Part shown: one piece after another, positions 42,030-44,473 of the stretch | Layout of the letters: every line of letters begins with the position of its first letter | Numbering within the stretch: position 1 is the stretch's first letter | Source: Limnohabitans sp. | Lineage (GTDB): Bacteria > Pseudomonadota > Gammaproteobacteria > Burkholderiales > Burkholderiaceae_C | Length of the DNA: 64,000 nt | Assembly: GCA_009693505.1 (NCBI GenBank) | Contig: SHXD01000007.1 | Coordinates: forward strand, 1 to 64,000 | Direction of reading: 5' to 3' | Program-made: the position numbers and the translations under genes | Notes under the pieces: generated by a model | Told to the model about the DNA's origin: nothing | Database searches by the model: none | What the model saw: only the letters and a program-made list of their open reading frames with translations

Positions 42030-43289
42030 ATGCACCTTGATGACCTCACTCAAACTGACACCCTGGGTGGCCGCTTGAGCCTGCCGCCACATCACATCAC
42101 GCGTGGTTTGGTGCTCATGGGAGGTGGCGCCAGAACGGCCTACCAAGCCGGCGTTTTGAAGGCCTTGGCTGAGTTGATCAAGCCGCCGGGTGGCAAGGCC
42201 ACCGCCTTTCCCTTCCAAGTCTTGGTGGGTACTTCGGCAGGCGCTCTGAACGCCACCTATTTGGCCAGTCGGGCCATTGACGGCTTAGCAGCATTGAGCG
42301 GACTGGGCGAGTTTTGGCAGGGTCTGCATTCTCGTTGGGTCTACCACCTGCCCGAAACACCCATGGCTCAGTTCAGCCGCTGGGCAACGGCATTGGGCGT
42401 CACCCTGTCGGCCCGCAAACAAGGCGCCGCGCTTGACAGCATGCCACTGGTGGACACCTTGCACCGACGAATTGCCCTGAACAACATCGATCTGGCATTG
42501 ACACGGGGAGACCTGAAAGCCTTGGCCGTCACGGCCTCCAGTTACACCACGGGGGTGCACTGGACTTTTTGTCAAACTCACCAACTGCAAAGTGCTCAGG
42601 CATGGAATAGGCCCGGGCGCCGCGCCGAATTGCAAGACATCACCATAGAGCATCTGATGGCCTCGAGTGCCATTCCTTTTTTATTTCCAGCCACACCGCT
42701 TTGGGTCGACGGCAACATGGAATACTTCGGCGATGGCTCAATGCGGCAAAGCTCACCGCTTTCTCCTGCCGTGCACTTGGGCGCCAACAAAATTTTGGCC
42801 ATTAGCGTTGGGCAACATCAACGAAGTTCCATGGACCTATCGGGTTCTAGCTTTCAGGCCAGCCCAGCCAGCAAACAGAGGCCCAGTCTTGGCAACATTG
42901 CAGGACATGCGATGGCCAGTGTGTTCAACGACACCTTGATGGCCGATGTTGAACAAGTCCAACGCGTGAATCAAAGCATTCAACAGCTAAAAAATCACCT
43001 TTCTGAGCACCACGGTCTGGCCCTGGCTCAGTCCCTGCCATTTCGAGAGGTGGAAGTTTTGGCCATGCAGCCCAGTGAGTCACTTGACGCCTTGGCCCAA
43101 GCGCATGTCCATGAACTGCCGCGGCCAGTGCACCGTGTCTTAGAGGGGCTCGGTGCATTGAATGGCTCGGGCGCCGGGCTTGCGAGTTATCTTTTATTCG
43201 AACCCGGATTTTTACGCGCACTCATGGCTCTGGGTGCTCAAGACGTGACATTGCGCAAAGAAGAACTCTTGGATTTTTTCAGCGATTAA
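42030..43289 (+). CDS. Patatin-like phospholipase family protein
   Basis: LVLMGGGARTAYQAGVLKAL; GTSAGALNA; DGSMRQSSPLSPAV. Confidence 0.92.
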   Translation: MHLDDLTQTDTLGGRLSLPPHHITRGLVLMGGGARTAYQAGVLKALAELIKPPGGKATAFPFQVLVGTSAGALNATYLASRAIDGLAALSGLGEFWQGLHSRWVYHLPETPMAQFSRWATALGVTLSARKQGAALDSMPLVDTLHRRIALNNIDLALTRGDLKALAVTASSYTTGVHWTFCQTHQLQSAQAWNRPGRRAELQDITIEHLMASSAIPFLFPATPLWVDGNMEYFGDGSMRQSSPLSPAVHLGANKILAISVGQHQRSSMDLSGSSFQASPASKQRPSLGNIAGHAMASVFNDTLMADVEQVQRVNQSIQQLKNHLSEHHGLALAQSLPFREVEVLAMQPSESLDALAQAHVHELPRPVHRVLEGLGALNGSGAGLASYLLFEPGFLRALMALGAQDVTLRKEELLDFFSD

Positions 43290-43304
43290 GTGCCATAATC
43301 CGAC

Positions 43305-43486
43305 CCATCATTATTTTGGAGTTTGCTCCGTGGAAAGCCACCCTAGTTGGTAGCTTTCGAATGAGATGGTTCCAGTGCTGCGCACCTAGATGCAGCTTAG
43401 CCAGTCGTTCGAAAGCTGCTTTGCCCTCATTGCCGCCTTATCGAACACTTGGCCCCCCAGTTTTTGGGGGCTGAAGGAGATCTGCC
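43305..43486 (+). promoter_or_regulatory. Structured corA 5' leader with candidate leader-peptide ORF and competing helices
   Basis: Possible SD GGAG (43318-43321), GTG GAA AGC CAC CCT AGT TGG TAG (43330-43353); arms GAAAGC 43333-43338, GCTTTCGAA 43353-43361, TTCGAAAGC 43408-43416; hairpin CCCCCAgttttTGGGGG 43454-43470 beside AAGGAGA. Confidence 0.6.
43330..43353 (+). CDS. Candidate leader peptide, M(V)ESHPSW
   Basis: SD-like GGAG 8 nt upstream of GTG; seven codons, then TAG placed against the first nucleotide of a helix arm. Confidence 0.45.
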   Translation: MESHPSW

Positions 43487-44473
43487 ATGCTCAACATTTT
43501 TACGCTAGCCAACGGCCGCTTGGTCCAGGAAGAGATTGAATCTCTGGAAGAGTTGTCCAAGTTCCAGCCTATTTGGGTCGACCTTGAGTCGCCCACTGTG
43601 GAAGAAAAACGTTGGATCAAACAATACTACGGCCTGTCCATTCCAGAAGATGCGATGGACGAGGACATTGAAGAATCTGCGCGCTTCTACGAAGAAGACA
43701 ACGGCGAGTTGCACATTCGCTCTGACTTTTTAATTGCCGACGAAGACGAGCCCCGCACAGTTCGCTGCGCCTTCATTCTGAATCTGCAAAACGCCGACCT
43801 GCGCAGCATCGGCGTACTGTTTTCCATCCACGACGAAGACGTGCCTGTGTTTCGCTTGCTGCGTTTGCGTGCGCGCCGTGCGCCAGGCCTGCTGGAAGAT
43901 GCCAAAGCCGTGTTGCTTAAGCTGTTTGATGCCGACGCGGAATATTCAGCTGACACACTGGAGAACATTTACGACAAACTTGAAATTGCGGGCAAGTTAG
44001 TCTTGTCTGGCGACGTGACCGATGCCATGGCCGGTGAAGTGCTGGGCGCCATTGCACGCCAAGAAGATTTGAACAGCCGCATTCGCCGCAACGTGATGGA
44101 CACACGCCGCGCGGTGAGTTTCATGATGCGAAGCAAGATGCTCAATGCCGAGCAGTTTGAAGAAGCACGTCAAATTTTGCGCGACATTGATTCACTCGAG
44201 TCGCACACTGAATTTTTGTTTGAAAAGATCAACTTCTTGATGGACGCCACTGTGGGTTTCATCAACATCAACCAGAACAAGATCATCAAAATCTTTTCAG
44301 TGGCCAGTGTGGCCTTGCTGCCGCCCACGCTCATTGCCAGTTTGTACGGCATGAACTTTCAGTACATGCCCGAGCTGTCGCAAACCTGGGGCTATCCGTA
44401 TGCGCTGTGCCTCATGGTGGCCAGTGCCGTGGTGCCCATGTGGTACTTCCGCAGACGCGGCTGGCTTAAGTAG
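43487..44473 (+). CDS. corA: Magnesium/cobalt transporter CorA
   Basis: Two C-terminal TM segments with YGMNFQYMPEL (GMN motif). Confidence 0.95.
   Translation: MLNIFTLANGRLVQEEIESLEELSKFQPIWVDLESPTVEEKRWIKQYYGLSIPEDAMDEDIEESARFYEEDNGELHIRSDFLIADEDEPRTVRCAFILNLQNADLRSIGVLFSIHDEDVPVFRLLRLRARRAPGLLEDAKAVLLKLFDADAEYSADTLENIYDKLEIAGKLVLSGDVTDAMAGEVLGAIARQEDLNSRIRRNVMDTRRAVSFMMRSKMLNAEQFEEARQILRDIDSLESHTEFLFEKINFLMDATVGFININQNKIIKIFSVASVALLPPTLIASLYGMNFQYMPELSQTWGYPYALCLMVASAVVPMWYFRRRGWLK

Follow-up and report, generated by a model that had tools for sequence, protein, structure and literature searches.

The leader of the magnesium transporter gene corA in Comamonadaceae, analysed here from a window (the whole stretch of 64,000 nucleotides studied) of a Limnohabitans-type genome of that family, is probably a translation-responsive switch governed by an upstream open reading frame (uORF) of only seven codons. 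Because this mini-gene resembles CorL of E. coli, its translation probably sets the amount of CorA that is made. Leaders in which a uORF controls a Mg2+ transporter gene are already known as a kind of system; what appears to be new is the RNA described here, with its division into two classes, its distribution and its seven-codon peptide, and no description of the RNA, of its classes or of the peptide was found in the open-access literature. The sequences show the uORF, the conservation of its amino acids, three co-varying pairings and the restriction to corA, and we infer the direction of regulation, the Mg2+ signal, a sensor based on ribosome destabilisation and the precedence of translation over Rho as the main output.

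In the window, the elements follow one another on the forward strand, starting with an extended -10 sequence (TGCCATAAT, 43291–43299). A Shine–Dalgarno (SD) sequence, GGAG (43318–43321), stands 8 nt before the start codon of the uORF (43330–43353), which reads GTG GAA AGC CAC CCT AGT TGG TAG and encodes MESHPSW. Codons 2–5 make up arm A (43333–43342), which is complementary to arm B1 (43349–43358), formed by codon 7, the stop codon and the next 5 nt. The pivot, arm B (GCTTTCGAATGA, 43353–43364), can pair with arm A or with arm C (TCGTTCGAAAGC, 43405–43416), and its 3' part (B3) has the corA ribosome-binding site (RBS) as partner in relatives; arm C in turn has in the window's genus an alternative partner for its positions 43407–43412, arm D (TCGAAC, 43441–43446). 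A linker from arm C to the RBS (43417–43453), C-rich and G-poor across the family in a rut-like manner, leads to a G/C hairpin (43454–43470), the corA SD AAGGAGA (43474–43480) and corA itself (43487–44473), which encodes a magnesium/cobalt transporter of 328 amino acids, scoring 225.7 bits against the TIGR00383 cut-off of 200.75. Some 130 nt separate the end of the window's uORF from corA. Directly 5' of the corA promoter ends a gene (42030–43289) for a 419-residue patatin-like phospholipase, with a weak NCBIfam similarity, far under the cut-off, to a CBASS phospholipase.

The initial annotation of this stretch had proposed an attenuator-like leader with mutually exclusive helix arms, and each motif that it named lies exactly where it was placed: GAAAGC at 43333–43338, GCTTTCGAA at 43353–43361, TTCGAAAGC at 43408–43416, AATGAG at 43360–43365, CTCATT at 43426–43431, the hairpin halves CCCCCA (43454–43459) and TGGGGG (43465–43470), the corA SD and the ATG at 43487. 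That account did not include the uORF, arm D or the conserved extended -10. Single-sequence evidence for the structure is modest: perfect inverted repeats in the window leader are up to 10 nt long, one of 9 nt was reached by 7 of 300 shuffles, and the fold has a z score of -2.29. It is comparison that makes the evidence strong.

corA was present in 89 of the 90 genomes of the genus, and 88 upstream regions were extracted. A covariance model built from these genus leaders (R1) matched 95 of 351 genomes of the family; 90 loci were examined and all 90 lie just 5' of corA, with automatic peptide picks for 85 of the R1 loci. A second model (R2), for what we call class I, with its TAG-GCTTTC hairpin, matched 138 of 301 genomes and 64 of the 126 sampled genera of the family. 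Outside the family, R2 gave only three weak matches, none adjoining corA, which were taken as chance rather than true leaders. Among 20 genomes without an R2 match, 19 have corA; the leader in 11 or 12 of the 19 belongs to a sister class, class II, in which TTG GAC AGC GAT CAC CCT CGG TGA – encoding MDSDHPR – is followed by an ACCGTC/GACGGT hairpin at the same position before corA as in class I (L368–L380 and L381–L410). Its own model (R3) matched 55 of 201 genomes and up to 38 of the 126 genera, the weakest three or four matches being probably chance; besides MDSDHPR, the peptides are MDQSHPR, MDSSHPR, MDHSHSR, MDKPPSR and MDTTPPR, each followed by a stop. The inspected leaders of both classes all stand 5' of corA, with a uORF that has its own SD directly before the gene.

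Some genomes depart from this pattern. In one Limnohabitans-type leader (L086, genome G071), both the uORF and the promoter-like -10 are gone next to an intact corA, a natural loss, and L335 is the same leader. Five genomes of the family (L362–L366), whose corA shows 79–85% identity, have neither class, their leader seemingly lost or replaced.

The 24-nt frame of the uORF occupies the same position in 85 of the 88 genus leaders, nearly always with GGAG upstream; the other three are the degenerate L086 and two (L027 and L057) cut by contig ends. The genus peptides are MESHPSW, METTPSR, MESYPSW, MDATPSR and similar ones, and between METTPSR and MESYPSR types there are compensating one-base shifts that leave the total length of the uORF unchanged, as the reading frame requires. 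Across the family, a search that demanded GA at codon 2 identified a frame in 108 of 109 loci, most of which, with hardly an exception, had come from the RNA model. The frame has 24 nt in 106 of the 108 leaders. The start codon in the standard-length leaders is TTG (47), ATG (34) or GTG (25). Codon 5 is CCC (45), CCT (39), CCG (19) or CCA (1), so that proline holds position 5 in 104 of the 106 frames; codon 6 is AGT in 103 and TCT in 3. As the passage from AGT to TCT takes two changes and retains serine, the residue is conserved at the amino-acid level. Variovorax leaders have TCT, or a proline codon (METVPPRQ), at codon 6. Asp or Glu stands at codon 2 in 106 of 106 standard-length frames, a count to be read with the GA imposed by the frame search; the acidic residue is absent in MLPVPSC and MKSCPSC, from named genomes in which the frame was traced backwards from the hairpin. 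Arg and Trp alternate at codon 7, where Cys and Gly are also found, and the leader L132, read by eye, encodes METYPSR. In leaders that have lost the TAG, the frame runs on, still open, for a few further codons, as in METAPSRQLSTPLRRRA, and the hairpin keeps its position.

The family consensus is M-[DE]-x-x-[PH]-[SP]-[RWC]-stop, its most conserved part being the Pro-[SP]-[RW] that immediately precedes the stop, and the codon patterns indicate that the uORF is under selection as a protein. The initial annotation had also thought of a translation-responsive leader, which a conserved seven-codon uORF overlapping two of the arms strongly suggests.

Signals for expression are conserved as well. The motif TGNNATAAT occurs in 45 of 59 dereplicated leaders of the family, against 0.12 expected from shuffles, and ends 26–41 nt (mostly 28–31) 5' of the uORF; an SD-like motif precedes the uORF in 44 of the 59. 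From this conserved extended -10, a transcription start at about 43306 is predicted in the window, well before the point, around 43420, beyond which a start would have spoken against the arms first described. A canonical sigma-70 site was sought and none was found. A further candidate, a hairpin of the uORF SD (GGAG-CTCC), was set aside, being without covariation (z -0.5).

Compensatory substitutions among relatives, whose absence would have spoken against the initial annotation, are present, and they concern three pairings. MAFFT alone aligns both arms of B:C, which is paired in 92.8% of cells of the family alignment against 36–57% when the arms are slid, and double changes fill 52 cells, against 16 after shuffling (0 of 500); the 9-nt match between GCTTTCGAA and TTCGAAAGC is part of this helix. 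A:B1 is paired in 88% of cells (slid controls 16–50%). The pairing of GAAAGC with GCTTTC co-varies in relatives, and in the window copy a C-A mismatch weakens it (probability 0.01). The covariation statistics are other tests than R-scape: the duplex energy between arms of one species was compared with that obtained when arms came from other species, and phylogeny was controlled by swapping arms between sister pairs. The first gave z scores of -11.6 for B:C, -7.5 for A:B1 and -6.9 for B3:RBS (each 0 of 2000), against -1.5 to 0.2 for loop, linker and upstream controls; the swaps favoured B:C by 30:5 (p 1e-5), B3:RBS by 28:10 (p 0.0026) and A:B1 by 14:2 (p 0.002), the controls not being significant. 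For B3:RBS, the signal has its maximum precisely at the RBS (-16 to -4) and the end of arm B, and it persists after stricter dereplication. The sister class differs in sequence and shows B3:RBS pairing again (z -4.6, 0 of 5000), for example as CTCCAGCG with CGCTGGAG and CTCCGGCG with CGCCGGAG.

The window's own genus differs in this respect: B3:RBS pairing is not seen there, and C:D is used in its place. C:D is paired in 91.5% of cells of the genus alignment (slid controls 20–65%), with one double change, in L094, where arms B, C and D have changed together (GCTTTCAGA, TCTGAAAGC and TTTTGGAC); within the genus alone, variation is too little for a conclusion on covariation. The idea of mutually exclusive arms acting as a leader switch is borne out by independent covariation tests, except for its third pairing, that of AATGAG with CTCATT, which just 6 of 23 close relatives retain. 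Next to the corA SD, the G/C hairpin exists as described but is confined to the window's sub-clade.

Folding with a ribosome footprint suggests how the arms may exchange partners. The family means are 0.75 for B:C and 0.19 for B3:RBS when the ribosome sits at codon 2, and 0.00 and 0.55 when it sits at the uORF stop. In the window, the same two positions give 0.97 and 0.00 for B:C and 0.03 and 0.99 for C:D. Several leaders of the family, folded with no ribosome, have A:B1 and B3:RBS formed together. The predicted unpairedness of the corA RBS is nearly constant across ribosome positions (0.31–0.39), so thermodynamics alone does not show its release.

We propose that a ribosome which starts on the uORF may be slowed or drop off within the first codons, as expected at low Mg2+; halted early, it would keep arm A from pairing and leave arm B free, so that B:C forms. 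This hairpin would sequester the sequence that otherwise masks the corA RBS, and corA would be ON. At sufficient Mg2+, completion of the uORF would bring the ribosome to open B:C and turn corA OFF: in most of the family the 3' part of arm B would then pair with the corA RBS, and in the window's genus C would pair with D, whose connection to the RBS is only proposed. Rho may add to the OFF state by acting on the C-rich linker. RNA free of ribosomes, with A:B1 and B3:RBS formed, would be OFF by default in several relatives. That the signal is Mg2+ is plausible from the gene context and the similarity to CorL of E. coli.

This similarity is close in some respects and absent in others. At the same position, E. 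coli K-12 has an annotated gene of 18 codons, ysgD (corL), beginning UUG-D-T-P-S-R-Y-W; corL of E. coli and Salmonella shares with our leader the gene, the SD-led uORF with a UUG, GUG or AUG start, alternative leader helices and a pyrimidine-rich stretch, and its translation is inversely related to corA (PMC11552253), a relation with which the proposed switch agrees. Its peptide starts M-D-T-P-S-R where that of the family starts M-E-T-Y-P-S-R, and it has 18 codons where the family uORF has seven and usually stops exactly at the hairpin base. The helices have no sequence similarity. The enteric RNA forms a three-way junction with its stem A over the uORF SD; in the family another architecture, that of A:B1, B:C and B3:RBS, co-varies, and the pivot arm is mostly itself complementary to the corA RBS.

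The CorL motif occurs in six other leaders of E. coli's order, the order having MDTPSR or MDTPSK in five, MDIPSR in L277 and MDIPGR in L263. Eight genomes of another family (f202) have M-D-S-H-S-R in their corA leaders. These Pasteurellaceae-like genomes of about 2 Mb (L225, L269, L272–L276 and L278) have a uORF reading M-D-S-H-S-R-[YN], without the enteric proline. The CorL N-terminal motif is present in our leaders in the shared form M-[DE]-x-(x)-[PH]-[SP]-[RW]; the H-[PS]-R of the sister class resembles that of f202, and the P-S-R of class I that of the enterics. In shuffled E. coli leaders, P-S-[RW] appeared in 16 of 20000, and in class-level CorA leaders outside the family and in other orders the CorL motif is absent. 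We take it to be a shared functional motif, by homology or convergence.

Other Mg2+ leaders follow related logic. MgtL of mgtA, a case of intrinsic ribosome destabilisation, carries an EPDP motif; the family uORF likewise has an acidic residue at position 2 and a proline near the N terminus, but is much shorter, mostly with one acidic residue only, weaker than EPDP, and with a conserved [PH]-[SP]-[RWC] ending. One uORF, MEPDPSWQLSTPA in L255, reads MEPDPSW, near the EPDP start of MgtL. Acidic residues and proline in the first codons, as in the family uORF, also mark the 8-residue mgtQ ORF of Salmonella mgtB (Asp2, Pro4 and Glu5), where translation is aborted by the acidic codons and the RBS of mgtB becomes free: a ribosome on mgtQ disrupts helix 1:2, and helix 2:3 forms (PMC8092293). 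At low Mg2+, ribosomes are known to be destabilised by acidic residues and prolines early in the peptide (PMC11282234). The mgtQ logic is that of A:B1, B:C and B3:RBS; mgtQ, however, lies between mgtC and mgtB, belongs to a different gene family and has no sequence in common with our leader, in which a single arm B carries both the anti-A and the anti-RBS parts.

Several other explanations deserve attention. It is possible, though rather unlikely, that the same uORF switch acts mainly through Rho-dependent termination in the C-rich linker, and not through masking of the RBS. The linker has a family mean of 44% C and a C/G ratio of 2.3 – though G+C-rich leaders are commonly high in C – and Rho regulates corA in E. 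coli and Salmonella (PMC11552253). An intrinsic terminator (a G+C hairpin with a U-tract) was not found in 43150–43560, which gives no support to an attenuator in the strict sense; the leader resembles trp-type attenuators in a leader ORF overlapping mutually exclusive helices and departs from them in this lack and in having no run of one regulatory codon. As B3:RBS pairing is missing from the window's genus, regulation there may end in Rho action on the linker. Against Rho as the general output, RBS pairing co-varies in two classes of unrelated sequence, which Rho control alone does not require.

The uORF might instead sense another translation problem – for example the supply of Arg-, Trp-, Pro- or Ser-tRNA, EF-P, ABC-F proteins or antibiotics – with corA part of a general translation-stress response. 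We consider this improbable: the strong conservation of the residues just before the stop and the few leaders lacking the acidic residue would suit it, as would the existence of leaders sensing several drug classes (PMC12121999), yet every inspected copy precedes a Mg2+ transporter gene, the alternation at codon 7 speaks against charging of one tRNA, and corA of E. coli, with a similar peptide, answers intracellular Mg2+ (PMC11552253). Less probable still is a leader that serves only for the coupling or timing of corA translation, without any physiological signal; short leader ORFs in general can raise downstream translation, but three competing co-varying pairings and conservation at the amino-acid level exceed such needs, and the uORF of the window ends far from corA. 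A riboswitch that binds Mg2+ directly and needs no uORF translation is very improbable, for although the leader has mutually exclusive folds and precedes a Mg2+ transporter gene, as the M-box does, and mgtA leaders are reported to fold in a Mg2+-dependent way (PMC11552253), no Rfam family (M-box, yybP-ykoY or others) matches the leader at gathering score – as the initial annotation had surmised – the M-box architecture is absent, no conserved loop or junction was seen beyond helices and uORF, the loop ranges from 4 to 72 nt, and conservation is concentrated in the uORF codons.

The uORF-governed switch, as we prefer to read it, adds to annotation a new RNA family, found as class I in 64 and as class II in up to 38 of the 126 sampled genera. 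corA has long been regarded as constitutive. It is quite possible, if short of probable, that M-[DE]-x-(x)-[PH]-[SP]-[RW] marks an ancient, dedicated corA Mg2+ sensor common to Beta- and Gammaproteobacteria, in which Mg2+ governs whether the nascent peptide itself arrests or destabilises its ribosome and the RNA switch around it has been rewired in each lineage, into two unrelated hairpin classes in this family and another fold in the enterics. The family supplies an example of a coding leader that retains its peptide while the surrounding RNA is replaced. Hundreds of natural seven-codon variants whose arms co-vary, set in two unrelated RNA frames and in non-model freshwater and soil bacteria, are now at hand, and as their conserved and replaceable residues are now listed, Mg2+ sensing by CorL may be reduced to a short mutagenesis experiment.
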